Below are positions 3,691-34,643 of a stretch of 37,351 nucleotides of DNA, piece by piece. The translations under genes were made by a program, and so were the position numbers. This DNA is from Campylobacteraceae bacterium (GTDB taxonomy: Bacteria > Campylobacterota > Campylobacteria > Campylobacterales > Sulfurovaceae). The first letter of the stretch is position 1; each line of letters opens with the position of its first letter. The notes under the pieces are model-generated. The model made no database searches and was not told where the DNA came from. It saw only the letters and a program-made list of their open reading frames with translations. The stretch spans positions 1 to 37,351 of the forward strand of contig JALVXD010000172.1 of assembly GCA_027038295.1 (NCBI GenBank). Reading direction: 5' to 3'.

Positions 3691-3718
3691 AATATCATTG
3701 GGTACACTCAATGATATT
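3691..3718 (+). other. Hairpin between rpmG and tRNA-Trp
   Basis: AATATCATTG (3691-3700) pairs with CAATGATATT (3709-3718) over 10 bp with an 8-nt loop. The following TATTCTT is only weakly T-rich and runs straight into the tRNA. It may be an inefficient terminator of the tuf-rpmG unit or a processing signal for the tRNA 5' side. Confidence 0.6.
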
Positions 3719-5195: not shown

Positions 5196-5909
5196 ATGGC
5201 AAAGAAAGTAAATAAAAAAAGAGCAGCACTCTTAGAGAAAATAGAAGTAGAGAAGAATTATGCTGTTGAAGAAGCAACATCACTTCTTACAGAATTGAAA
5301 TCAGCTAAGTTTGATGAGACCGTTGAGATTGCGTTGAACTTAAATGTTGACCCAAGACATGCAGATCAAATGCTTAGAGGTTCAGTAGTACTTCCAAATG
5401 GTACAGGTAAAGTTGTGAGAGTAGCAGTGTTTGCAAAGGATGATAAGGCTGATGAAGCTAAAGCAGCAGGGGCTGACTTGGTTGGTTCTGATGATTTAAT
5501 TGATGCAATTAAAGAGGGTAACATTGATTTTGATACTGTAATTGCAACTCCTAATATGATGGGAACACTTGGTAAAGTAGCTAGGATTTTAGGACCAAAA
5601 GGTTTAATGCCTAACCCTAAAACTGGTACAGTAACAATGGATATTACTAAGGCTGTTACAGAAGCTAAAGGTGGAAAAGTTAACTTTAGAACAGACAAAA
5701 AAGGTAATATTCATGCTGGAATTGGAAAAGTAAGTTTTGGTGCTGAGAAAATTTTAGAAAATTTAGAAACTTTTGTTCAGACCATTAACAAGGTTAAACC
5801 AGCATCTGCTAAAGGTAGATACATTACAAATGCTGCTATCTCTTTAACTATGAGTCCAGCAATAACACTTGATGCAAGTGAGCTTATGGATATGAAAGCA
5901 AAAGCTTAA
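5196..5909 (+). CDS. rplA: 50S ribosomal protein uL1
   Basis: uL1 forms the L1 stalk and usually also represses translation of its own mRNA. The 237 residues are slightly above the usual ~230. Diagnostic segments are [50 protein letters not shown] and [22 protein letters not shown] ribosome binding site precedes the ATG. The stop codon lies within an AAGCTT hairpin, and downstream begins the palindrome-rich spacer before rplJ. In E. coli the L1 target lies in the rplK leader; I could not identify an equivalent with confidence. Confidence 0.99.
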
Positions 5910-5920
5910 GTCTAAAGCTT
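5902..5920 (+). repeat. AAGCTT hairpin, copy 1
   Basis: Two AAGCTT boxes (5902-5907 and 5915-5920) are separated by 7 nt and can pair as a 6-bp stem; the first overlaps the rplA stop codon. A related element occurs at 6062-6081. Each sits 13-14 nt ahead of one of the long palindromes. Confidence 0.6.
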
Positions 5921-5934
5921 AGGGCAAAAAAGGG

Positions 5935-5992
5935 AAAGAGGGTATACAATAGGGGTCAGGTTTAAACCTGACCCCTATTGTATACCCTCTTT
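5935..5992 (+). repeat. 58-bp perfect palindrome with GGGGTCAGG core, copy 1
   Basis: Positions 5935-5963 and 5964-5992 are exact reverse complements with no spacer. The inner arm is AATAGGGGTCAGGTTT and the outer part is AAAGAGGGTATAC. The right arm runs into a T-run, so in RNA this is also terminator-like. The core resembles short palindromes that I associate with REP-type elements mobilised by IS200-like (RAYT) transposases. That link is from memory, and no transposase is in the window. Confidence 0.95.
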
Positions 5993-6016
5993 TTAACACC
6001 CTTTCTTGTCTTTTCC

Positions 6017-6033
6017 TTTATGCTTGGCATAAA
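6017..6033 (+). other. Small hairpin between the two palindromes
   Basis: TTTATGC pairs with GCATAAA around a TTG loop. It may be an independent structure or part of the material carried between the two repeat copies. Confidence 0.5.
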
Positions 6034-6061
6034 CTAATCTAGATTGAAGATAATAGGGGCG

Positions 6062-6081
6062 AAAGCTTAATATAAAGCTTT
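6062..6081 (+). repeat. AAGCTT hairpin, copy 2
   Basis: AAAGCTT (6062-6068) pairs with AAGCTTT (6075-6081) around AATATA. It resembles the hairpin at 5902-5920 in sequence and in its distance to the palindrome that follows. A further AAGCTT occurs at 6087-6092. Confidence 0.6.
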
Positions 6082-6094
6082 GAAAAAAGCTTGT

Positions 6095-6138
6095 TACTTC
6101 AATAGGGGTCAGGTTTAAACCTGACCCCTATTGAAGTA
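6095..6138 (+). repeat. 44-bp perfect palindrome with GGGGTCAGG core, copy 2
   Basis: Positions 6095-6116 and 6117-6138 are exact reverse complements. The inner 32 bp are identical to the core of the palindrome at 5935-5992, but the outer arms differ (TACTTC with GAAGTA). It ends 27 nt before the rplJ start codon and just upstream of the ribosome binding site. Confidence 0.95.
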
Positions 6139-6165
6139 CCCTTTTAGAGATCGAAAGGAGAACAA

Positions 6166-6651
6166 ATGACTAGAACTGAAAAAGAAGCTATTGTTAATGA
6201 ACTCTCAACTGCTTTTGCTGATCAGGGTGCTGTAATCGTATGTGATTATAAAGGTATGACTGTTGAAGCATTAGAAGGTGTTCGTAACATGGCAAGAGAA
6301 AATGATGTTAATGTTAGGGTAGTTAAAAATACACTTGCAACTATTGCACTTAAAAATGCAAACTGTGAAGAGTTAGAACTACTTGACAACAATGTTTTTA
6401 TTTGGGGTGAAGATCAAATTGCTACTTGTAAAGTGGCTGATAAATCTGCTGAAGCAAATAAAGATAATTTCTCAATCAAGTCTGGAGTAATTGAGTCTAA
6501 AGTTGCAGATATCGCTACGATTAATGCTATGGCTAAACTTCCAGGTAGAGATGAACTTCTTGGTATGCTACTTAATGTTTGGAATGCACCAGTGCAGAAC
6601 TTTACAATAGGTATGAGTGCACTTGCTACTAAACTAGAAGAAGAAGCGTAG
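6166..6651 (+). CDS. rplJ: 50S ribosomal protein uL10
   Basis: uL10 anchors the L7/L12 dimers to the ribosome as the base of the stalk. The 161 residues begin MTRTEKEAIVNELSTAFADQ and contain VIVCDYKGMTVEALEGVRN and VRVVKNTLATIALKN, the rRNA-binding N-domain. The C-terminal helix that binds L12 dimers is at about 130-161. A strong AAGGAG lies 6 nt before the ATG. In E. coli the L10-L12 complex represses this mRNA at its leader. Here the leader is occupied by the repeated palindromes, so the usual control may be changed or replaced. Confidence 0.98.
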   Translation: MTRTEKEAIVNELSTAFADQGAVIVCDYKGMTVEALEGVRNMARENDVNVRVVKNTLATIALKNANCEELELLDNNVFIWGEDQIATCKVADKSAEANKDNFSIKSGVIESKVADIATINAMAKLPGRDELLGMLLNVWNAPVQNFTIGMSALATKLEEEA

Positions 6652-19680: not shown

Positions 19681-22600
19681 ATGAAAAGAATTCGCAATAT
19701 ATTATTACTTCTTACGACAATGTTTGTAAATGTTTTTGCACAGGTAGACTATGCCAATGTCAAAATTTCTGATGCACAGCCTACCGTAAAAAAATCAAAA
19801 TATAGTAATAGTTATTCTAAAACTACTGTTTCTAAAGTATCACTAGGAAGCTATGTTTGGTTTGACCATAATGGTAATGGGCTACAAGATTTAGGTGAGT
19901 TGGGTATTTATGGAGTTAACCTTAAACTTTATGATAATGCTGACTGTACAGGTACTGTTATAGCAACTACAAAAAGTTCAGATATTGGATATTACAAATT
20001 TTCTGATATTACACAAAGTACAGATAAGTACTGTATAGGAGTAGCGTACCCAAGTTATTGGACACATACTCTCCCTAACAGTGGTGATGATGCTTTGGAC
20101 TCAGATGTCATTACTATGAGCAGTAGTATGGGAAAAATAGAAAACATTTCATTGATTAAAAATAATCTGAACTTAGATGTTGGTTTACAGCACAAAGATA
20201 CAAATTGTCAGGTTCCAACACTAAAAACTGGAGCTACAGGAGAGTATAATTACAATAACTCATGGGCAAAAAGAGCCACACTTGATGTGGAGTTTGAAAA
20301 TGTGGTTGCCAATGGATTTTGTCATGAGTATAGCAACAGTGGTCCAGAAGTAGGAGAAAAGTATACGGCTCATTTAAAAGATAGGTTAAATTTTTCTAAT
20401 CTACAACGAGACCGACTTTCACGAACATTTAGATTTATGAGTGACCCTGAGATTATAGCATTGGTTGAAGAGAGTTTTAATCCTGAAGATAGACATTACT
20501 GGTTTAATGTTATGTCTAACGCATTTGTGTGGTACTACTCTGATTGGAAAAGTGATTTTTCTAAAATAGAAAACTATATAGATAATGGATGGTTATCAGA
20601 TAAGCTGACCGATGCAGAGAAATCCTCTTTAAAGGATATATCGAGACTTATTATTAATAAAATAGAAGGTCTTAACGGAGAAGTTCAGTATGAACCGATG
20701 AAAGTTTACTACCTCTGGAATGAAGATAATGATAAGCATCAAGATTTAATTGTTCCCGAGACATCTTTAGTACCAAAGCAGAGTGAATGTAAAGCACCTA
20801 TTGCTACAGCAGAACTAGGAGATTTTGTTTGGTTTGATGCCGATAGAAATGGTAAACAAGATAATGGTGAAGCTGGTTTAAAAGGTGTTAAAGTTGAACT
20901 GTACAGCAGTGATACCTTGGTTAAGAGTACAACGACAGATGCAAATGGTACCTATCTTTTTTCTACTTTAGAAGCTGGAGAGTACAGCTTGAAATTTTTT
21001 GCTAAAAATGGTTGGAGTATTACTAGTAAAAATGCAGAGGGTGTATCTGCTTCGTTAAATTCTGATGCTGATAAGAGTACAGGCAAAACAGAAGCGTTAA
21101 CACTGAATGATGGAGAGAAGAACCATGATATTGATGCAGGTATGTATATTACTCCTAAACCAGCTATTAAAATAACTAAAGAGACCAATGGTGGTAAGGT
21201 AGATAATATTGTTGAGGGTGATGTAGTTACTTGGACTTATGTTATTACTAACAGTGGAAATGAACCTCTCTCTAGTCTTGTCATTACTGACAACAAAGAG
21301 GGTACGGTTTCGGATTGTAAGGGTGAAGGTTCATTAGAAGCATTGAACCCTACAAAAAGTATCACTTGTACTAAAGTGGGAACAGCTATTTTAGGTGCAT
21401 ATGAAAACTCTGTGACCGTTGTAGCTTCTGCTGACAGTGTAGAGGTTCAAGACAGTGCAAAGAGTTCATATGTGGGTAAAGATGCTCCTATTTTAACAGG
21501 TTCTATTGGTGACTATGTTTGGTTAGACTTTAACCATAATGGTATCCAAGATACAGATGAGCCAGTAGTCAATGCGATAACTGTTAAACTTTTTAATAAA
21601 GAGAATAAAGAGATAGCTGTTACTAAAACAGATGCTTCTGGAAAGTATCAATTTTTAGATGTTGTAGCAGGTGAGTATTATGTGCAGTTTTCACTTCCAA
21701 GTGCTTACTCTACAACCATTCAAGATAGAGGTGATGATACCTTAGATTCAGATGTAAATGCAGATGGAAAGACAGCACTGTTTACTTTAGGTGCTGGTGA
21801 GAATATAGATAGTATAGATATGGGTCTCTACCCAATGTTGGTTGAGTTAGGAAATCGTGTTTGGTATGATGCCAATAAAAATGGTATTCAAGATGCTGAT
21901 GAAAAAGAGAATATAGCCAATGTTACAGTGAAGTTATATAAAGAGGGTGGTGAGTTTGTTAAAGAGACAAAAACACGTGCTTCTGGTCTTTATGATTTTA
22001 AAGATTTAATTGCTGGAAACTACTATGTTGTTTTTGATATTCCTGAAAACTATAAGGTAAGTCCTAATAATGTAGGAAACAATGAGAGTGATGACTCTGA
22101 TGCAAACCCTACAACAGGTAAAACAGATGTAGTGACATTGGTAGCTGGAATTAATAATAGAACGGTAGACATGGGTCTCTATCAAGAAGCTGCAAAAGTT
22201 GGTGATAGAGTTTGGTACGATGCCAACAAAAATGGTATTCAAGATGATGGAGAAGAGGGCGTAGGTGATGTTACCGTTAAGCTCTATCGTGTAGGTGAAG
22301 CTGATGCTGTAGCCGTTACTAAAACATCTGCAACAGGTATTTACCTTTTTGATAATGTATCTCCTGCTGACTATTATATTGTATTTACTGCACCTGCTGG
22401 TTATACTATTACAGAAGTAAATAAGGGTGATGAGAGTAAAGATTCAGATGCTGACGCTACTGGTAAAACAGAAAACTTTACACTACTTACGGGAACACAA
22501 AACTCTACTATAGATATGGGGGTTTACCAAAATGTAGTAAGTCTTGGAGACAAAGTTTGGCTCGATACCAACCATGATGGAATACAAGATGTAGGTGAAA

Positions 22601-25311
22601 CAGGTGTAAGAGACATCAACGTAACCATTCATAGTGAGACCAATGATTTTTCTAAGTCGGTTTTAACGGATGAAAATGGTAATTACTTGTTTACACACTT
22701 GTCTGCTGGTGAATATTCTGTAGAGTTTAAAGATATACCTTATGGACATCTTATTACTCAAAAAGATGTAAATGGTAACAAGAGTGACCTGAATGATTCT
22801 GATGTATATGTCAATGAAGATAAGAAGCTAGTAACAGAGGCAACACTTTTAACTCCTGGTGAAAATGATTTATCATGGGATATGGGAATCTATAAAACAG
22901 TTTGTCTTCCAGGAAAAGCAGTTCTTGGAAACTTGGTTTGGGAAGACTTTAACAAAAATGGTATTCAAGACATAGGTGAGCGAGGGGTGGCAAATGTAAA
23001 AGCAACACTCTTTAACAACGATACCGATGAAAAAGTAGCTGAGGTTGTTACTGATGAAAATGGTCTTTATGAGTTTGCACACCTTGACCCAGCGTTTAAC
23101 TACTATGTTCAGTTTACTCTACCTGCTGGTTATGTGGTAAGTCCACAAGACCAAGATGATGATATGATAGATTCAGATGCAGATGCAACGGGTAAAACAG
23201 ATGTAATTACTTTAGAAGCTGACCAGATTAACTCTACTGTTGATATGGGTATTCATCATGAGGGTTCTACCATTGGTGATAGAGTTTGGTACGATGAGAA
23301 AAATGGTGTAAGTAACGGTATTCAAGATGCAAGTGAAAATGGTGTTCAAGCTGTAAAAGTTACACTCTATAGTGCCAATGGTGATGAGGTTCAGACCACT
23401 CAAACCAATGCAAGTGGAGAGTACCACTTTACCAATGTTCCAAAAGGAAATTACACCATCGGTTTTTCTGAATTGCCAAATGGTTATGTCTTTACAGAGG
23501 AGAACCAAGGTGCCAATAGTGAGCTTGACTCTAACGTAAATGCGAATGGAAGAACAGATGTTATCGTTGTTGATGGTATTGCCAATGTAGGGGCTATTGA
23601 TGCAGGTATCAAAACACTCTCTCCTGTAGATTCTCGTCCAGATATAAAAAGAGGTACATCGGGAGAAAGTACAGTTATTGATATTTTAGCAAATGATGGA
23701 GATGGTACTTATGACCTTGACCCTTCAACGGTAAAAATTACAAACATACCTGATGGTGCAACACTGAGTGAAGATGGTAGAACTTTAACCGTACCAACTG
23801 AGGGTGTATGGAGTGTAAATCCTTCAACTGGAGCCATTACGTTTACACCTAATGATGGTTTTGTAGGAGACCCTACACCTATTAGTTATACGGTATCTGA
23901 TACACAAGGAAATGAGACGGGTGCTGATGTTGAAGTAAACTATCCACCTTTAGCACAAGATGACCATGTAAATGGTGAAGTTGGAAAGCAGATTGTTATC
24001 TATGTCCTTGATAACGACAGTAATACTTCAACACCACTTGATAAAACAACTGTAAGAATCATTGACCCTGAAAATGGTAATGAAGTAGAGACTTTAACCG
24101 TAGTTGGAGAAGGAACATGGAGTACCAATGAAGATGGTTCTATTACCTTTACTCCTGAAGATGGCTTTAAAAATAATCCAACTCCAATAGAGTATATCGT
24201 ACAAGAGCAGTCAGGAGATGTGAGTAATAGAGCAACTGTTACTATTGTTTACCCTGATGCAGTTGATGATGTGATTATTGTACCAGTAGGGCATACAGGT
24301 GACATTACGGTTAATGTACTTGAAAATGATAGTAACAATACAGAAGCTTCTAGCGTCTCTTTAGGATGTACAGAAGCAAATGTAAAAAGTTTAACGGTAG
24401 CAGGTGAAGGTGTGTGGAGCGTTACCGATATTGGAAGAGTTCTCTTTACTCCTAAGGCAGAATTTATTAATGAGCCTACAGATGTTAACTATACAGTTGG
24501 ATTGGTTTCAGGTGAGCGTTCTAACTGTGCAACCATAGATGTACGTTTGGAGTTGTTGGCTAGAGATGACAGCTCACTTATGAATGTAGGTGGCTCAACA
24601 TGTATTCATGTTCTAAACAATGACTATGGTTCTCTTAATCCAGAGTCTGTAAAACTTATTTTACCAGAGAAGATACCAGCTGGAAGTAGAGTGAGTGAAG
24701 ATGGAAAAACTTTAACTGTACGTGGTGAGGGTGTATGGTCTGCAAGTAGTGAAGGTATGGTTTGTTTTAGAGCTGAAGACGGCTTTACGACAACGCCAAC
24801 ACCAATTAACTATAGTGTAGAGAATCGTAATGCTTTAGTTAGCAATATTGCAACCATTACTTTAACTCAAGGTGGTGATGCAACCGTTGTCGCTACCAAT
24901 AACAGTGCTCAGGCAAATAATGGTGAGCCTATAGTTATAGATGTGTTGAGTGATGATAGAGGTGACATTAATGGTTCAAGCGTTTATATTTTAGATGTAG
25001 ATGGTAATAGAGTTCAGAGTCGTGTGGTTACGGGGGAAGGAACTTGGCAAGTAAATACTGACCAAACAGTAACATTTACACCAGAAGCAGGTTATACGGG
25101 TACGCCTACTCCTATTGAGTATGTTATTCAAGACCGTCATGGTGTTATTAGTAATACGGCTACGATTACTATTAAAGGAGTATGTACCTGTGAAGCATAT
25201 GAGAAGAGTATTCCTGTATTAAGTGATACAGCAGGAGTTTTAATGTTCTTGTTAACACTTTTACTAATGCTTTTCTTTTTTGAGAGAGAAGAAAATATGA
25301 GATATAGTTAG
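19681..25311 (+). CDS. Giant secreted SdrD_B/CshA-repeat surface protein with C-terminal sorting signal
   Basis: This 1876-residue predicted cell-surface fibre protein starts after AAGGAGAG. Residues 1-20 are a signal peptide. Eight SdrD_B-type beta domains (GDxVWxDxNxNGIQDxGE pattern) start near 53, 377, 606, 721, 839, 953, 1080 and 1196; their D-x-N-x-N-G-x-x-D loops suggest calcium binding. Residues 175-370 form a different domain with Cys214, [10 protein letters not shown] at 279-288 and KHQDLIV near 352, resembling a thioester adhesin domain with Asn in place of the reactive Gln. A DUF11-like domain spans about 493-597. Five CshA-like repeats of ~100 residues cover 1315-1834. The end is [14 protein letters not shown], one membrane span and EREE. 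The architecture suggests an adhesin or surface layer; the ligand is unknown. Confidence 0.85.
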
Positions 25312-26357: not shown

Positions 26358-29300
26358 ATGAATTTAAGAATAAGCTCTATACTTTCGATTTTATTACTTG
26401 GAAGTACGCTTCAAGCTGCAACACTGACACTTACGACAAAATATGGTGCAACAGGTGGATTAGCTGGTAACTTTAATAATGTTGGAGATCAGGTTAATGG
26501 ACGAAATATTTGTCCAGCTGTCAATGATTATAATAATGGTACAGCAGGATGTGATATGTCAGGTGATGCTGGTTATAGTGATAATGGTACTGGAGATCCA
26601 TCTGATGATAGTTATAGTGGGGATTTAATAGTTCGTACCAATGATAGTTTTGAAGCAGTTGCTAAATATAGTTGGCTTGGAAATGCTGGAGGAGATGAGG
26701 AGCAAGTAACAATTTCTGGAGTTTTACCAGCTGGTAAAGGATTTATTTGGGATGGTATTCCTGGTTCGTGTGATCAAACATTAAGTACACTTTCTGAAGA
26801 TAAGAAAAATATTGACTGTGTTAGAAAAGATTTTGATACAAATGATGTTGGTTCCTATAGTGAACAGATGACTTTTTCTGTTAAAGTTGAAGGAGACGCA
26901 GTTAATGGGAGTATTCCTGGTGATATTACGTTCTCTATTAAAGAGCCTACTGGTACAGCAGGTACACTTACTGATGGTGTAGAAGATGGAAATAGTGCTA
27001 ACCTTTTAAAGGTAACAGCTTCTCCACGTTGGAATATTGATAAACATGATGGTCCAGGATATTATACAACATCTTATGGAGTGAACGATGCAGATGGTAA
27101 TCCTGGGTGGTATCTTTGGTACAATTTTACTATTGAAGTAGATGAGGTTCCTGGAGAAACTGATGACCCTATCAACCCTAGCTTAGGGAATGAAGCTCTT
27201 AAAGGTGGTACTAATGCAACAGTTACATTTACAGATGATTTAAGTAATATCTCTCCTAATGCTAAATTAGTTACGTGGGATACGAATGGTAATTTTTCAC
27301 CAACATCTAATGCTTGTGATATGGATAACTATACTAATAGTGATGAGCCTTTTCCCTACTTAAATACGACTTATCCTGATAGAAGTATTCCTCTTGCTCG
27401 GGGTACAATGGGGGTTACTTGTACACAAACAGGTACTACTGTAGCCGTAGAGGTAACGGGTATTGATGGGACATTAACTAATGCACCTATTCGAAGTCAA
27501 AATGGAACTCTTTTACCTGTAAATCGTAATATTGCAGCTATTGGTGTACTGCGTGTATTTGTTCCTCTTTCTGATGTTGAAGCTGGAGAAGATGGGATAG
27601 TTGGTAATGATGATGATGGTACTTTGAGTGCAACAAACTGTTTAACTAATTTTAATCCAGTTGGTATATCAGATGGTACTAATTTTAATGGTTTAGGTGA
27701 GAGTGAAGCTGATAATTGTAGAAATATTACTCTATATGCTACGCGTGGTTCATGGAGTAAGTCTTATCGTAAGGGTTGGAGTGATCAATCTAATCAAATA
27801 AGCCAATGGGGAGGTGGCTCTTGGGCTTTACCTCCAACAGATGGATCAATAGTGAGGGCAGGTGATGCTACAGCTACTCCTGGCTCTGTTTGGGGTACTT
27901 ACACTGTATATACTAATACAGGTGGAACCGATATAGAGAATCCTGCAATATGTGATGTTATAGATGTTGAAACCTATAAAATGGTATTGCTTGATGCAAC
28001 TACAGATAATTCAGCTACTTTTGTAGATGATACAAAACATGCTGTAGATTTGAATTATGGTACCACAGAAACAGTTCCTAATATAAAAGTTGAATATGCA
28101 ACAGGTTATGTAGGCACATGGCCACCAGCTCCAGATGCACCAGCAGGTTTAGCTGTTGCAAGAGAGTGTAATGCTACAGATATTACTTGGTATCCAGATC
28201 TTCTTTCTGCTGAGGCAAGTGGACAACCAGTATCAAAGGTAAGACTTTCAGCTCCAACTTTACCTGTCCAAAAACTTATGGCAATGCGTATTAAACATGA
28301 AGCTCGTTCAACTTATTTGACATCGGGTGATCCCATACCAAATAATAAACTTTTAGTAAACTATGCAACCTATAAAAGTGCTTTAACAGATAACAAATAC
28401 GTTTCTATTAATTATCAGCCAAATGATGCAAGTATAAATCATATAGGTGGATGGTCTGGAGATAGACTGATCATGGAAAGAGCAAAAGTAAGAGTTTTAA
28501 AAGAGATGCTTCCTACAGCAGTAAGTCCTGGCTCTGAAGTAACGGTTAAGTTGACTCCAAGCTTTACAACAGATGGTTCAGGATCAGAAAGTAGTAATGT
28601 TCAAATTGTAGATGTTTTACCAAATGGATTAAGCTATAAAAATGGAACAACTATTGGTTCATATGGAACATCATTTACCCCTTATGGAGAGCCACAAGTT
28701 ATTTCTCCTGCTACAGATGCTACCTGTAACACTTATGCAGCAGCTATTGTAGCAAAAGGACATCCATGTGCTACACTCAATGGTGGCACAGGAAAAGAGA
28801 GTATTTTAGTTTGGGATTTAGGTTCTCAAACAACGGGGACAGTTTATAGTGATTTAAATTTGACAGCTATTGTTACTGTTGATGCACCAGCTGGTGTTTT
28901 AGCAAACTATGTGCAGATTGAGTCTCCAGCTGATGATAGTGTAGCATCAAAACGAGTTGATAATGCAAATGTAAGCAATTCGGTACCTTCATCCCTACTT
29001 ATTGTAAAAAGTGTTCAGACACCTCTACATGAAATTAATAAAGATGGACTCCTAAACTGGATGGAGTTTAGAGTTGGTTTGAGGAATGGAGCATCAACAC
29101 CTTTAACCGAATTAGATATTATTGATGTTTTACCTTTTAATGGTGATGGTGTAGAGGGAAGCTTTACGTTTACTCCTCTTCCTGGTACAACTGTAGCTAG
29201 AAAAAGAGATGTGGCTACAAACTTTAATGGAGCTTTTCAATTTGATAGTATGTCATTTGATGAAAATGGTCAATGTAATGCACGTGGTATATCGTATTGG

Positions 29301-32300
29301 TTTACGAAACAAGCAGGACCATTAGATATTAGTCCATTACACGCTTCAAATACAAAAGCAGATGGAACACCTGAGACTATTTGGTGTGAAGGTACTACAG
29401 ATGGACCAGATGCTGGATGTGGATTTACCGATGCAGAAGTCACAGCTGTACGTACAAGAGGTGTAAGTATGACAGCATCTGGAACATGTTTTGTAAATCT
29501 AAAGTTTGCGACAGATGATAATAATGATAATGATATCTACTCAAACACAGCTGCTTCAACAGCAATAGCTGAAGATGGAAGTAAGCTTGATGCTGTACTT
29601 TCAAATACAGTTTCAGCTAAAGTTTATGCGAGTAGTATTGGTGATAAAGTTTGGTATGATAGAGATGCTGATGGTATTCAAGATGAGGGAGAGACAGCTA
29701 TTGGTGGTGTGACTGTTAAGTTATACAAAGATGATGGTACACTTTTATCAACAACTATAACTGCTGCTGATGGTACCTATGGGTTTAAAAACCTTCTAAA
29801 TGGGGACTATATTATTGAGTTCATTAAACCAGTGGGATACTTGGTAACTACGAAAGGTAGTGGTGGAGATCAAACATTAGATTCTAATATTAATACTAAT
29901 GGGAAAACTGATATCATTACTTTGGGTGAAGATGAAGAGAACCCTACTATAGATGCAGGTTTCTTTAGTCCAATAATCTCAGGAAATATCTTTTCTGATG
30001 GTAATGGTGATAATACCATTAATGGAACAAAAATTTCTACAGTAAGTGAAGAGCAACTTCATGCAACACTGTTGGCTGAAGATGGAACTGTATTAGCAAC
30101 AAAACCTATTGCAGTAAGTGGTTCTTATGAATTTGATGGAGAAGATGGAGTGCTTGCTAATAAGAACTACTCTGTTGTTTTAAGTACTGTATCTGGAACT
30201 ACAATACCAAAACTCCCAGATACTTGGAATAATGCAGATGGTGAGCATATTGGAACAGCTGTTGGAACAGATGGTCAAAATGCACAAGGTGAAGGTGATG
30301 GTAAAATAGTTGTTAATCTTCTTGAGGAAAATGTTCCTGAAGTAAACTTTGGAATTAATGAGAAACCAGTAGCACAAGACAAAACAGAGGCTCCACAACT
30401 GAACCCAGGAGCAGATGTAAAAGTCTCTGTGCCAGATTTAAATGTAACAGATAGAGAAGATGGAACACCAACAACGATAACCATCACAACACTTCCTACT
30501 AATGGAAAACTCTATTATAATGGAAACTTAGTAACAGTAAATGAGGCTATTGAAAATGCAGACCCAAGTAAATTTACCGTTGACCCAGACAATGGTGACC
30601 AAACTGTTATGTTTAACTATACAACAACTGATAAAGTTGGTGTAGTATCAGATGAAGCAACGGTTACTATGCCATTTAGAGGATTGAAAATTTCAGGAAA
30701 TATCTTTGATGATGGAAGTGGTGATGATACTATTAATGGTACAAAAATTTCAAGTCCAGATAGTAAACAACTCTATGCAACTCTTTTAAATGGTGATGGT
30801 GCAGTATTGGCAACTAAAGCAATATCATCAGGAGCATATAGCTTTAATGGTGATGATGGGATTAAGCCAAATAGTAGTTACACCGTAGTGCTTAGTACAG
30901 AAGCAAATGCAACTGAGGCAAAACTTCCAACAGATTGGAACCATGCAGATGGTGAGCATATTGGTACAACTGAAGGAACAGATGGTGATGCAGATGGTTC
31001 CATTTCAGTTTCAGTAGAGGGTGTAGATGTTCCAGAAGTTAATTTTGGAATCAACAACAAGCCGACAGCTGTAGATAAAGCTGAGCCAACACAAGCAAAC
31101 CCTGGAAAAGATAATCAGGTAGTTGTACCAACATTGAGCATAGCAGACAAAGAAGATGGTACACCAACAACCATAACCATAACAACAGTTCCTACTAATG
31201 GAAAATTATACTATGATGGTGATGAAGTAAATGCTGGAGATACATTAACTGATTTTGACCCAAGTAAATTTACGGTTGACCCAGATAATGGAGACCAAAC
31301 TCTTGAGTTTAAATATACTGCAACAGATAGAGCTGGTGTGGTTTCAGATGAGGCTAAAGTGACTCTACCATTTACAGATATTGCTATCTCTGGAAAACTA
31401 TTTGATGATGGAAATGCTAATGGGAATGTCGATGGAAATTTAACAGCAAAAGCTGATGATACACAACTCTATGTAACTCTAGTCGATACTAATGGTGATG
31501 CTGTAGCTTCTAAACCTTTAGGTGCAGATGGAACATATATCTTCTCAAATGTTGATGGTGTTACACCAAATACAAACTATACCATGGTTCTTTCTGATGA
31601 AGCAAATAGAACAACTCCAAAGCTTCCAGAAAACTGGAACAATGCAGATGGTGAAAATATTGGTCTTAATGGACTTGACAGAGATGCAAATGGTATTGTA
31701 ACTGTTAATGTAGCTTCAACACATATTCCAGAGATTAACTTTGGTATCAATAAAAAGCCAGTAGCTGATGATAAAACAGAGCCAACACAGTTTAATCCAG
31801 GTTCAGATGTACAAGTAAGCGTTCCCACATTAACCGTTAGTGATAAAGAAGATGGAACTCCAGCTATTGTAACCATTAGAACACTGCCTACAAATGCAAC
31901 ACTCTATTATGATGGTGCAGAGGTAACAGTTGATATGGAGATAGCTGATTTAACGCTATTGACAGTTAACCCAGATGATGGTGACCAAACAGTACTGTTT
32001 ACGTATACTTCAACTGATGTAACAGGTATGGTCTCTGACCTAGCAACGGTGACTATGCCATTTAAAGGGATTAAAATCGCAGGTAATATCTTTAATGATG
32101 GTAATGCTGATGGTACAGTAAATGGTACGCCAATAGCTTCACCAAATGGTACGCAGTTACATGCTACTCTTTTAGATGTTAATGGAACAGCGATTGCCAC
32201 TACACCTATAGCAGAAGATGGAACATACAGCTTTGGAAATAAAGATGGTATTTTACCAAACCACTCATACTCTGTAGTACTTAGTACAACAGCTAATTCA

Positions 32301-34643
32301 AATGAAGCTTCTCTTCCAGTGAACTGGAACAATGCAGATGGTGAGCATATAGGTGCAAATACAGGTCTTGATGATGCTCCTGATGGAGTTATTAACGTAA
32401 CTGTAGTAGAGACAGATGTGGTCGAAGTGAACTTTGGAATCAATAAAAAACCAGTTGCAGGTGATAATACAGGTGAATTACAACTTAACCCAGGAACAGA
32501 TGTTCAGGTCAATGTAATTGATTTAAATGTTAGTGATAGTGAAGATACCACACCAAGTACTGTAACAATTAAAAGTGTACCAAGTAATGGAACACTATAT
32601 TATAATGGTGTAGAGGTTACAGAGAATCAAGTGATTGAAAATTTTGATAATAGTAAATTAACACTTGACCCAAATAATGGTAGTTTAACAGTTTCATTTA
32701 CTTATACAACTACAGATGGTAGTGGTGTAGAGTCAGACGTAGCAACTATTGCGATGCCATTTAAAGGTCTGAAAATTTCAGGAAATATCTTTAATGATGG
32801 TAACAATAATGGAACAGTCGATGGAGACTTAACATCAAAAGCTGATGAGGTAGCACTCTATGCTGTATTACTAGACAGTAATGGTAATTTTATGGCAAGA
32901 GAAGCTATAAAAGCAGCTGGTTCTTATGATTTTGATGGATTAGATGGAATTGTTCCAAACAGTACTTATAATGTTGTTCTAACTTCTGATGCAAATGGTA
33001 CAACAGCAATGTTGCCAAACACATGGACTAATGCAGATGGTGAGCATATAGGAGCTGATGCTGGTTTAGATAGAGTAGCAGATGGGGAGATTGAAGTTGT
33101 AGTAACTACTAAAGATATTCCAGAGATTAACTTTGGGATTAACAAAAGACCAGTGGCAGATGATAAAACAGAACCAGAGCAATTAAATACAAGTAGAGAT
33201 GCTCAGTATGTAGTACCTACGTTAACAGTGAGTGATAATGAAGATGCTTCACCAGTGATAACCATTACAACACTACCTACAAATGGAACACTTTACTATG
33301 AGGGAACTCCTGTAGAGTTAAATGCAACCATTGCAGACCCAAGTAAGTTGACAATTGACCCAGATGATGGTGACCAAAATATTACCTTTACCTATACATC
33401 AACAGATGTAACAGGTGCAATTTCAGACCCTGCAACGGTAGTTATGCCATTTGTTGGTGTGAAAATTTCAGGATACATCTTTGCAGATGGTAACAACGAT
33501 GAGACAGTTAATGGAACGCAGATAGCAACAGTAGATGGTGTTCAACTCTATGCAACACTTCTTAATGAGAATAATGAGACTTTAGCTACTGTAGCGATTG
33601 ATAGTAATGGAAGTTACCTCTTTGAAAACAAAGATGGTGTCTACCCGAACAATAATTACCATGTGGTACTTAGTACAGAAGCCAATGCTACAACAGCAAA
33701 ACTTCCAGAAAACTGGAACCATGCAGATGGTGAGCATATAGGTAGAGATAAAGGTTTAGATGATAGTGCTAATGGAGTGATAGATGTAAGTGTTGTAACA
33801 ACAGATGTTCCAGAGGTTAACTTTGGTATCAATAAAAGACCAGTGGTTGAAGATGTTACCTCAGTAGTTCAAGCCAATCCAGGTGCAGATAAACAAATAA
33901 AAGTGATAGATTTAGGTATTATTGATAATGAAGATGGTTCACCAAAAACGGTAACTATTGTATCTTTACCAACAGATGGTACACTCTATTATGATGGTGT
34001 TGCAGTAGAAAAAGGACAAATTATTCCTAACTTTAATAATAAGTTATTAACAGTTGACCCTAAAAATGGTGCAACAAAGATAGAGTTTGATTATACTACA
34101 ACTGATAATACAGGTTGGGAGTCAGAAAAAGCAAGAGCGACCATGCCATTTGCAGCTGTTGCTCCATCAGAAAACTTTACTGCAGAAGATGATGCACAAC
34201 CTGCAAGTTTAGAAGGTCCAGTAACTACTATAAATGTACTGGACAATGATGCTTTAGGTGCAGGAAGCATTATTCATCTTCTTGATACAAATAATGGTAC
34301 GATTTTATGGAATGATGGTACAGCTGTAGGTTCAGCAACCATTAATACACAAGATAGTGTTGTGGTTCCTGGTGAAGGAGTTTGGACAGTAAATGGTGAT
34401 ACAGTTGTGTTTACAGCAGAAGAAGGTTTCACAGGAATTCCAACACCAATCTACTATGTCGTAGAAGATAACCAAGGAAACCAAACCAATGCAGCACAAG
34501 TAGCAATTATAAGTAATTGTGTTTGTGATACTTATGAAAATTCTGTATCAGCATTGAATCCATGGTGGATGCTAGTCGGAATGTTCTTTATCTCAATTTT
34601 AGGAGCTCTCTTTGCAAGAAGAGAGTTTGAAGAACTTAAGTAA
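26358..34643 (+). CDS. Giant secreted multi-repeat surface protein with C-terminal sorting signal
   Basis: This 2761-residue predicted surface protein is preceded by AGAGGA. Residues 1-20 are a signal peptide ending LQA. About 21-230 is a beta-rich domain (TNDSFEAVAKYSWLGNAGG, LPAGKGFIWDGIPGSC) of a type I recall from large fimbrial or isopeptide proteins. DUF11-like segments occur around 707-870 and 878-1090, and an SdrD_B domain at 1092-1206 (SIGDKVWYDRDADGIQDEGE). Six tandem ~230-residue modules fill 1207-2598. A single CshA-like repeat (NVLDNDALGAGS, GEGVWTV, FTAEEGFTGIPTPI) covers about 2605-2718. The end is CVCDTYENSVSAL, one membrane span and ARREFEELK, matching the end of the other giant protein. 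Likely a long cell-surface fibre or adhesin; substrate unknown. Confidence 0.85.
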   Translation: MNLRISSILSILLLGSTLQAATLTLTTKYGATGGLAGNFNNVGDQVNGRNICPAVNDYNNGTAGCDMSGDAGYSDNGTGDPSDDSYSGDLIVRTNDSFEAVAKYSWLGNAGGDEEQVTISGVLPAGKGFIWDGIPGSCDQTLSTLSEDKKNIDCVRKDFDTNDVGSYSEQMTFSVKVEGDAVNGSIPGDITFSIKEPTGTAGTLTDGVEDGNSANLLKVTASPRWNIDKHDGPGYYTTSYGVNDADGNPGWYLWYNFTIEVDEVPGETDDPINPSLGNEALKGGTNATVTFTDDLSNISPNAKLVTWDTNGNFSPTSNACDMDNYTNSDEPFPYLNTTYPDRSIPLARGTMGVTCTQTGTTVAVEVTGIDGTLTNAPIRSQNGTLLPVNRNIAAIGVLRVFVPLSDVEAGEDGIVGNDDDGTLSATNCLTNFNPVGISDGTNFNGLGESEADNCRNITLYATRGSWSKSYRKGWSDQSNQISQWGGGSWALPPTDGSIVRAGDATATPGSVWGTYTVYTNTGGTDIENPAICDVIDVETYKMVLLDATTDNSATFVDDTKHAVDLNYGTTETVPNIKVEYATGYVGTWPPAPDAPAGLAVARECNATDITWYPDLLSAEASGQPVSKVRLSAPTLPVQKLMAMRIKHEARSTYLTSGDPIPNNKLLVNYATYKSALTDNKYVSINYQPNDASINHIGGWSGDRLIMERAKVRVLKEMLPTAVSPGSEVTVKLTPSFTTDGSGSESSNVQIVDVLPNGLSYKNGTTIGSYGTSFTPYGEPQVISPATDATCNTYAAAIVAKGHPCATLNGGTGKESILVWDLGSQTTGTVYSDLNLTAIVTVDAPAGVLANYVQIESPADDSVASKRVDNANVSNSVPSSLLIVKSVQTPLHEINKDGLLNWMEFRVGLRNGASTPLTELDIIDVLPFNGDGVEGSFTFTPLPGTTVARKRDVATNFNGAFQFDSMSFDENGQCNARGISYWFTKQAGPLDISPLHASNTKADGTPETIWCEGTTDGPDAGCGFTDAEVTAVRTRGVSMTASGTCFVNLKFATDDNNDNDIYSNTAASTAIAEDGSKLDAVLSNTVSAKVYASSIGDKVWYDRDADGIQDEGETAIGGVTVKLYKDDGTLLSTTITAADGTYGFKNLLNGDYIIEFIKPVGYLVTTKGSGGDQTLDSNINTNGKTDIITLGEDEENPTIDAGFFSPIISGNIFSDGNGDNTINGTKISTVSEEQLHATLLAEDGTVLATKPIAVSGSYEFDGEDGVLANKNYSVVLSTVSGTTIPKLPDTWNNADGEHIGTAVGTDGQNAQGEGDGKIVVNLLEENVPEVNFGINEKPVAQDKTEAPQLNPGADVKVSVPDLNVTDREDGTPTTITITTLPTNGKLYYNGNLVTVNEAIENADPSKFTVDPDNGDQTVMFNYTTTDKVGVVSDEATVTMPFRGLKISGNIFDDGSGDDTINGTKISSPDSKQLYATLLNGDGAVLATKAISSGAYSFNGDDGIKPNSSYTVVLSTEANATEAKLPTDWNHADGEHIGTTEGTDGDADGSISVSVEGVDVPEVNFGINNKPTAVDKAEPTQANPGKDNQVVVPTLSIADKEDGTPTTITITTVPTNGKLYYDGDEVNAGDTLTDFDPSKFTVDPDNGDQTLEFKYTATDRAGVVSDEAKVTLPFTDIAISGKLFDDGNANGNVDGNLTAKADDTQLYVTLVDTNGDAVASKPLGADGTYIFSNVDGVTPNTNYTMVLSDEANRTTPKLPENWNNADGENIGLNGLDRDANGIVTVNVASTHIPEINFGINKKPVADDKTEPTQFNPGSDVQVSVPTLTVSDKEDGTPAIVTIRTLPTNATLYYDGAEVTVDMEIADLTLLTVNPDDGDQTVLFTYTSTDVTGMVSDLATVTMPFKGIKIAGNIFNDGNADGTVNGTPIASPNGTQLHATLLDVNGTAIATTPIAEDGTYSFGNKDGILPNHSYSVVLSTTANSNEASLPVNWNNADGEHIGANTGLDDAPDGVINVTVVETDVVEVNFGINKKPVAGDNTGELQLNPGTDVQVNVIDLNVSDSEDTTPSTVTIKSVPSNGTLYYNGVEVTENQVIENFDNSKLTLDPNNGSLTVSFTYTTTDGSGVESDVATIAMPFKGLKISGNIFNDGNNNGTVDGDLTSKADEVALYAVLLDSNGNFMAREAIKAAGSYDFDGLDGIVPNSTYNVVLTSDANGTTAMLPNTWTNADGEHIGADAGLDRVADGEIEVVVTTKDIPEINFGINKRPVADDKTEPEQLNTSRDAQYVVPTLTVSDNEDASPVITITTLPTNGTLYYEGTPVELNATIADPSKLTIDPDDGDQNITFTYTSTDVTGAISDPATVVMPFVGVKISGYIFADGNNDETVNGTQIATVDGVQLYATLLNENNETLATVAIDSNGSYLFENKDGVYPNNNYHVVLSTEANATTAKLPENWNHADGEHIGRDKGLDDSANGVIDVSVVTTDVPEVNFGINKRPVVEDVTSVVQANPGADKQIKVIDLGIIDNEDGSPKTVTIVSLPTDGTLYYDGVAVEKGQIIPNFNNKLLTVDPKNGATKIEFDYTTTDNTGWESEKARATMPFAAVAPSENFTAEDDAQPASLEGPVTTINVLDNDALGAGSIIHLLDTNNGTILWNDGTAVGSATINTQDSVVVPGEGVWTVNGDTVVFTAEEGFTGIPTPIYYVVEDNQGNQTNAAQVAIISNCVCDTYENSVSALNPWWMLVGMFFISILGALFARREFEELK
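29976..34152 (+). repeat. Six tandem ~690-bp coding repeats
   Basis: Units start at 29976, 30690, 31386, 32076, 32775 and 33465 and are 690-714 bp long. Each encodes a first half of the type ISGNIFxDGN...TxNGT, then PNxxYxVVLST, WNxADGEHIG and VPEVNFGINKxP. The second half is of the type NPGxDxQVxVPxLxVxDxED, TLPTNGTLYYxG, DPxxGDQTVxFxYT and ATVTMPF. Copies are similar in protein but clearly diverged, so this is an old expansion. I recall closely similar composite modules in large Bacteroidetes surface proteins. Confidence 0.95.

Follow-up and report, generated by a model that had tools for sequence, protein, structure and literature searches.

Two perfect palindromes, A and B, that lie between rplA and rplJ in a member of the Campylobacteraceae are probably (we put this at roughly 0.7) miniature remnants of an IS200-like transposon (Y1, HUH) of the TIRYT or TIRtron kind, lodged at the apices of hairpins in the leader of the ribosomal genes. 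The window, as we call the whole 37,351-nucleotide stretch of DNA analysed, is contig C172 of a 2.8-Mb assembly that consists of 293 contigs and has a listed completeness of 96.56%. Relatives, contigs and loci are identified below by our own labels (G, C and L, respectively) where they have to be told apart.

Palindromes A and B in the rplA-rplJ spacer

The features of the region are listed in Table 1. A first-pass annotation of this DNA had reported two perfect, spacerless palindromes in the rplA-rplJ spacer, which proved exact, with arms of 29 and 22 nt. It had also assigned them a common core of 32 bp; the sharing stands, the length does not, the core being 34 bp long and consisting of CAATAGGGGTCAGGTTT and its reverse complement (nucleotides 5947-5980 and 6100-6133). 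A background sample of 156,893 bases, drawn as 20 stretches from the same genome and covering about 6% of it, contained six perfect inverted repeats with arms of at least 12 nt and a loop of at most 12 nt, and the longest arm among them had 15 nt with a 4-nt loop. The longest perfect inverted-repeat arm in the rest of the window had 13 nt. Palindromes A and B are outliers, far above this background.

Table 1. Coordinates of the features of the window that are discussed in the text.
Feature	Position	Strand	Description
Palindrome A	5935..5992	.	58 bp, perfect, zero spacer, arms of 29 nt; tip of the upstream hairpin
Palindrome B	6095..6138	.	44 bp, perfect, zero spacer, arms of 22 nt; apex of leader stem P3
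24-bp core of A	5952..5975	.	GGGGTCAGGTTT/AAACCTGACCCC, two GGGGTCAG transposon-end motifs head to head
24-bp core of B	6105..6128	.	identical to the 24-bp core of A
rplA (ribosomal protein L1)	5196..5909	+	PF00687
rplJ (ribosomal protein L10)	6166..6651	+	PF00466; ribosome-binding site AAGGAG at 6155-6160
Short native hairpin, rpmG-tRNA-Trp spacer	3691..3718	+	G411 has a 60-bp GGGGTCAG palindrome in the same spacer
Whole hairpin A	5921..6012	+	base stem approximately 5921-5934 with 5999-6012, interior loop, palindrome A, then T-rich tract; predicted fold
L10-leader-like RNA core	6040..6157	+	P1, GCGAAAGC hairpin, P2, P3 (site B); positions transferred from the consensus
P1 of the leader RNA	GATT 6042-6045 with GATC 6149-6152	+	plus the strand pair AATAGGG/CCCTTTT; consensus

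An origin of the palindromes as an artefact of the assembly of a metagenome-assembled genome (MAG) is scarcely credible. The division of the genome into 293 contigs speaks for it, but the flanks are unique on both sides of the palindromes, and other MAGs, which bear different sample labels, have in the same spacer palindromes that are similar without being identical and in several cases perfect, which makes an artefact unlikely.

Elsewhere in the window, 3' of the ribosomal gene cluster, nucleotides 19681-25311 and 26358-34643 are occupied by two very large ORFs of 1876 and 2761 amino acids. These include SdrD B-like, CshA and other adhesin-type domains, and on this basis they probably encode giant surface proteins beside core ribosomal genes.

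Distribution of the palindromes

A search of the palindromes' own genome with AATAGGGGTCAGGTTT at up to two mismatches recovered the four palindrome arms and three matches with two mismatches each. Since the reversed control pattern also had four matches, these three look like chance; one of them, on contig C105, was read as a lipoprotein-like coding start. The paired motif patterns are present in this genome only at the two sites of the rplA-rplJ leader. This confinement, together with the lack of a match to the corresponding transposase (see below), means that the palindromes are not an abundant REP family in their own genome. The genome search with the 16-nt arm that had been proposed in the first-pass annotation thus returned the leader arms as the only good copies, without the expected spread of a family.

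The genus set comprised 34 genomes, about 70 Mb by rounded sizes, and nested matches were merged. The exact pattern GGGGTCAG-N(0-60)-CTGACCCC was found at 16 distinct places, 12 of which are in the rplA-rplJ leader (11 genomes), and the reversed control of the paired pattern had no match in the same 34 genomes. The other four exact places are the rpmG-tRNA-Trp spacer of G411, one place in G399, and two contigs of G412 that apparently represent one locus. A looser GGGTCAG pattern adds a second place in G399 and single places in G398 and G418, the one in G418 within a coding frame. The leaders themselves could be read in 30 genomes of the genus (G427 has a partial rplJ match and no leader; G399, G403 and G420 have no match). 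The exact pair GGGTCAG...CTGACCC is present in 11 of these 30 leaders and, if each arm motif is allowed one mismatch, in 12; decayed B copies recognized by reading in G418 and G422 bring the count to 14. With the same tolerance the motif pair was found in none of 40 leaders of other genera, which had been chosen by hand from 121 genomes of the same family outside the genus with an rplJ match. The motif-bearing inserts occupy two hairpin apices, the upstream one, A, and that of stem P3, B. This concentration of inserts in the rplA-rplJ leader is strong; the hot spot could be due to selection or shared ancestry instead of targeting, and short-read MAGs may lose palindrome copies elsewhere.

The rpmG-tRNA-Trp spacer was read in 20 relatives in addition to the palindromes' own genome, and in the latter as well as in 19 of the relatives it has a short hairpin or none. 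In G411 the perfect 60-bp palindrome (C194, 5046-5069, equivalent to L057, 1501-1524) is directly followed by TTTTT. Site A of G401 and G367 (L034 and L047) is occupied by another palindrome; its end, CTCTGCCCCTAC, resembles by reading a reversed GTAG-type REP. The sequences suggest that hairpin tip A may receive several kinds of palindromic element.

Five stretches with the exact 24-mer turned up among 84,980 species genomes, three from Campylobacteraceae MAGs, where it is located in the rplA-rplJ spacer, and two from unrelated bacteria, at unrelated positions. The three MAGs are G410, G409 and G415, already members of the genus set, and provide no extra evidence. At up to two mismatches the 24-mer was present in one of 398 genomes of the order, namely the palindromes' own genome, in a sample that included just three other members of the genus. 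One genome of the Elusimicrobia has 20 GGGGTCAG-type matches, some of them overlapping, at unrelated places, which indicates that the motif, judged by its sequence, is part of a wide class of palindromes; one genome of the Deltaproteobacteria has a single match of this type, also at an unrelated place. No match was found when plasmid and phage records were searched with the spacer, plasmids with the 34-nt core, and viral contigs with the 24-mer. Literature searches found no title on such palindromes among the matches listed for the string GGGGTCAGGT, no relevant paper on a palindromic rplA/rplJ intergenic leader, and none on an L10 leader in Epsilonproteobacteria.

Relationship to Y1 transposons

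Y1_Tnp genes are present in 30 of the 34 genomes of the genus. Of 29 loci taken from the Y1_Tnp search, GGGGTCAG motifs lie close to the gene in four and the variant AGGGTCAG in a fifth; one such Y1 protein, used as query, matched 27 of the 34 genomes, in many cases as fragments. Terminal inverted repeats of this kind could be delimited at nine of 30 fetched transposase loci, L142, L143, L145, L146 and L171 and the more distant L147, L149, L169 and L170, and many of the remaining loci are fragments or other Y1 types. The elements of G408, G421, G416, G367 and G424 are 850-864 bp long with inverted repeats of 21-26 nt that read GGGGTCAGGTGAACGTAATCA or close to it, and the more distant types, in G418, G413, G421 and G424, have repeats of 18-31 nt and lengths of 850-1093 bp. 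Three of the Y1 proteins match PF01797 with E values from 2.6e-15 to 5.5e-17.

The link between these elements and the leader is provided by relatives in which the site-A palindrome consists of element ends placed back to back around a centre of 3-7 nt (G421, G416 and G413), the match to the element ends extending, by reading, over about 20-22 nt. Two of these genomes, G421 and G416, hold both a full element and the leader palindrome. Direct reading of the two sequences showed that the right arm of the palindrome in G416 matches 22 nt of the right end of its own element, and that the left arm of the palindrome in G421 matches 22 nt of the left end of its own element. The inner sequence of the window copies, GGTTTAAACC, matches the known full-length ends over GGGGTCAGGT only, and a full element with GGGGTCAGGTTT at its ends did not turn up. 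The search of the palindromes' own genome for a transposase of this subfamily gave no match among 18 candidates scored, and its five Y1 genes have no GGGGTCAG within the fetched loci. The assignment of the window copies to the family, made by sequence comparison, is based on the GGGGTCAGGT core and on the intermediates of the relatives, not on a cognate element of the same genome. The first-pass annotation had suggested a mobile palindrome of an IS200-type transposase, to be checked by looking for many intergenic copies and for a Y1 gene flanked by the same sequence; the Y1 link and such a gene were both recovered in relatives of the genus, the gene was not found in the genome at hand, and the many intergenic copies did not materialize.

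Other elements were encountered at these loci. At L153 (1410-2151) of G425 there is a Y1 element with inverted ends AAAAGGGGACAGGCTACTTTAAAG; GGGGACAG fits GGGGWSAS, and the element may define a second TIRYT type in the genus. Locus L166 (1961-2949) of G402, fetched for its Y1 match, has inverted TGTAGGTCGGAC...GTCCGAC hairpins by reading, perhaps GTAG-type REPs with their RAYT. In L075 (G408, C19), which encodes a 254-aa Y1 protein, a full-length GGGGTCAG element adjoins, at approximately 1399, a portion of a second Y1 transposase gene, which may mean that one transposon lies inside another.

Putative insertion sites and evolution of the arms

Both palindromes are located at hairpin apices, and the same hairpins are present in relatives that lack the inserts. 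For 12 family members outside the leader the symmetric flanks add up to 20 nt, versus 4.75 expected (P approximately 3e-5), in a test that depends on where boundaries are drawn, whose 12 loci are not fully independent, and which leaves out L217 (second contig of the G412 locus of L212; symmetry 0 by reading) and L228 (G399, same kind of site as L219); for L171 the left boundary used was that of an adjacent copy (length 1355 instead of 850; symmetry 0). These flanks support dyad insertion and suggest that the elements may insert at short dyads. In G409 and G411 a palindrome is found inside a palindrome (GGGGTCAG-TAAA-GGGGTCAGG... in G409), as would be expected under repeated insertion at dyads. 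Among the nine perfect copies of the leader type, eight have, by reading, symmetric outer arms of 5-19 nt (0 in G413), while those of elements elsewhere measure 0-4 nt, a difference for which insertion at dyads does not by itself account.

A tree based on rplJ and rplL of 30 genomes, and on rplA of only 10, identified as sisters the palindromes' own genome and G417 (support 1.00), G410 and G408 (0.996), and G415 and G419 (0.935). When the spacers of the first pair were compared, 25 of 102 positions differed inside the palindromes versus 16 of 154 outside, and 22 of the 25 palindrome differences, including an indel, are mirrored in the opposite arm. Site B is filled in G408 and empty in its sister G410, and the A palindromes of the sisters G415 and G419 differ. 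The nine perfect copies, whose arm lengths were entered by hand, contain 240 pairs, and eight decayed copies together span 188 positions, 13 of them mismatched and 9 paired as G-U; these lists leave out G419 (one mismatch by reading) and G426 (a variant GAGTTAGAC palindrome with an arm of 17). As decay proceeds without a preference for G-U, these few copies give no indication that the insert is selected for its pairing in RNA. According to PMC8794818, RNA hairpins can arise and be preserved through template switching, and we infer that template-switch rewriting would explain the perfect copies better than slow compensation.

The leader RNA

Across 30 genomes of the genus the spacer includes an upstream hairpin (site A, absent in several), a hairpin of the TTTATGCTTGGCATAAA type and, 5' of the ribosome-binding site, a core that is conserved. 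The sequence of the base stem of hairpin A varies yet it remains paired in the relatives, by reading. Leader cores were cut from 66 of 70 leaders (four failed the motif), the cut falling inside the palindrome in G417, G411 and G408. The fold alignment used 24 hand-chosen leaders without a B insert, 17 from the genus and seven from other genera, and its consensus is a branched fold of 25 predicted pairs, 15 of which have double-sided changes. Site B is the apex of the third stem, P3, of this covarying RNA, and the conserved letters of the core are present in the window. When the palindrome-bearing leader was folded as a single sequence, A, P2 and P3 formed and P1 did not, its strands pairing locally and its 3' strand with the region of the ribosome-binding site. 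The predicted fold has two long stems and a free energy of -121.7 kcal/mol (z -13 vs shuffles), and a terminator scan of nucleotides 5700-6400 gave five sites versus 0.4 in shuffles, four of the five being palindrome A. Within 6139-6160, CCCTTTT pairs with GAAAGG of the ribosome-binding region in this predicted fold, instead of forming P1, and such alternative pairing could hide the ribosome-binding site.

The Rfam model of the ribosomal L10 leader (RF00557) had no match at E up to 1 in seven loci of the genus, nor at E up to 0.001 in any of 21 related genomes, in a search whose control detects 4 of 14 genomes. The Rfam matches that were obtained at E up to 1, mostly to microRNA precursors, were rejected because such models match any long hairpin. 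A possible mimicry of the leader strand AATAGGGGCGAAAGC by AATAGGGG within the palindrome was also considered and dropped, as other copies read AAAAAGGGG or GTAAAGGGG. The covarying rplJ leader RNA may deserve a model of its own; as a putative L10-type leader it would bind L10 for feedback control.

Comparison with known elements

Di Nocera et al. (2013, PMC3733652) describe TIRYT genes as having terminal inverted repeats (TIRs), some with a common GGGGWSAS, and many TIRs as occurring in dimers or clusters. The inverted ends GGGGTCAG/CTGACCCC of the window, at 5952/5968 and 6105/6121, fit this GGGGWSAS motif, and the genus resembles the TIRtron/TIRYT system in having a Y1/HUH gene with terminal inverted repeats, the same motif, and dimers. 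Unlike in that system, the dimers found here are gene-less, very low in copy number and concentrated at the hairpin tips of one ribosomal leader, and the cognate transposase was not found in the genome of the window although it is present in the relatives G421 and G416. The palindromes are best read as a variant of the TIRtron kind that strongly prefers particular sites, and are unlikely to be a conserved regulator.

With REP/REPIN sequences and their RAYTs they have in common that those, too, are palindromic extragenic units related to the flanks of IS200-like transposases (PMC2817692), and the best NCBIfam match of the cognate protein is REP_Tyr_transpos. However, the three proteins score 73.5, 72.2 and 60.1 bits, below the cut-off of 80 of the RAYT model (NF047646), no GTAG/CGTC was read at the feet of A or B, and in their own genome the palindromes occupy just two places, both in the rplA-rplJ leader. 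Insertion into a palindrome is also a property of the REP-targeting insertion sequences ISPsy8, IS1397, ISKpn1 and IS621; for ISPsy8, PMC1525189 reports insertion on the axis of symmetry of what is probably a REP hairpin. These belong to other IS families, and the target in our case is a hairpin of a ribosomal leader. The L10 leader of Rfam RF00557 is likewise a structured RNA directly 5' of rplJ with a branched, covarying fold; since its model has no match in the genus, the leader described here is either a diverged version or a separate one. Intervening sequences in stems of 23S rRNA are also inserted at an RNA helix without disrupting the core fold and are expected RNase III substrates. In contrast to these, the palindromes have no ORF, are much shorter, and are located in an mRNA leader.

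Origin of the palindromes

We propose that two GGGGTCAG ends would have been fused head to head without the transposase gene, and that the transposase would choose dyads, of hairpins or of short palindromes, as its points of insertion, perhaps in single-stranded or supercoiled DNA of the rplJ operon. The rplJ-rplL-rpoBC operon is essential and highly transcribed. Inserts that lengthen a stem would be tolerated at A and B because the RNA core is untouched, and template switching during replication would keep or rewrite both arms together, so as to give perfect palindromes. In the mRNA the inserts are expected to form stems of at least 20 bp, and RNase III cleavage or, at A, partial termination may follow. 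By this expectation the inserts would be tolerated passengers, possibly processed, with an RNase III cut, partial termination or no effect all being possible outcomes. The more general scheme, in which HUH/Y1 transposons land on hairpin tips, the ribosomal leader is their main safe harbour, and template switching keeps fast-evolving stems paired, is a tentative one that we consider rather doubtful as a whole.

A remnant of a transposon is to be weighed against a fixed regulatory element, in which the long hairpins would be terminators or attenuators maintained by selection because they set the ratio of rplKA to rplJL-rpoBC. Most of the 30 leaders of the genus have, by reading, a hairpin at A followed by a T-rich tract, and both the excess of terminator sites, four of five of them palindrome A, and a fold far better than that of shuffles (z -13) agree with such a function. 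We nevertheless regard it as unlikely: the GGGGTCAG palindrome is missing in many members of the genus and in all 40 leaders of other genera, the type of palindrome switches between sister species, the eight decayed copies, few as they are, do not suggest that pairing in the RNA is selected, and the common GGGGTCAG core is that of the transposon ends. The first-pass annotation would have seen a fixed element in palindromes without any other copy in the genome and with conservation in related genera. No other good copy was indeed found in this genome; the 40 leaders of other genera lack the palindromes, which within the genus vary in sequence and in presence.

Foldback synthesis or template switching could also have built the palindromes locally at a short hairpin, without a transposon, and the published mechanism (PMC8794818) fits the perfect arms, the zero spacer, and the mirrored substitutions and indel that separate the window from G417. 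It would not yield the same GGGGTCAG core at A, at B, in the tRNA-Trp spacer of G411 and at the ends of Y1 elements, and as the sole origin it is quite improbable; template switching is likely as a secondary process on the arms. The exact dyad symmetry would also suit a signal that acts at the level of DNA, such as an operator bound by a dimeric protein, a reading to which we attach very little weight, as the sequences of the inner and outer arms change freely while symmetry is kept, and as none of the 40 leaders of other genera has the palindromes. Usual operators are, moreover, far shorter than A and B.

Significance

Miniature transposons are usually studied as scattered repeats, and those described here are rare in their genome and recurrent at two hairpin tips of one leader. 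If targeting of hairpin dyads is true, it would link the choice of target by a transposon to RNA or DNA secondary structure. The fast, symmetric change of the arms between sisters constitutes a bacterial test case for template switching versus stepwise compensation in the pairing of stems. Should the more general scheme outlined above be true, the rplA-rplJ leader of this genus would be a natural system in which to watch hairpin transposition and the evolution of stems by template switching between sister species.
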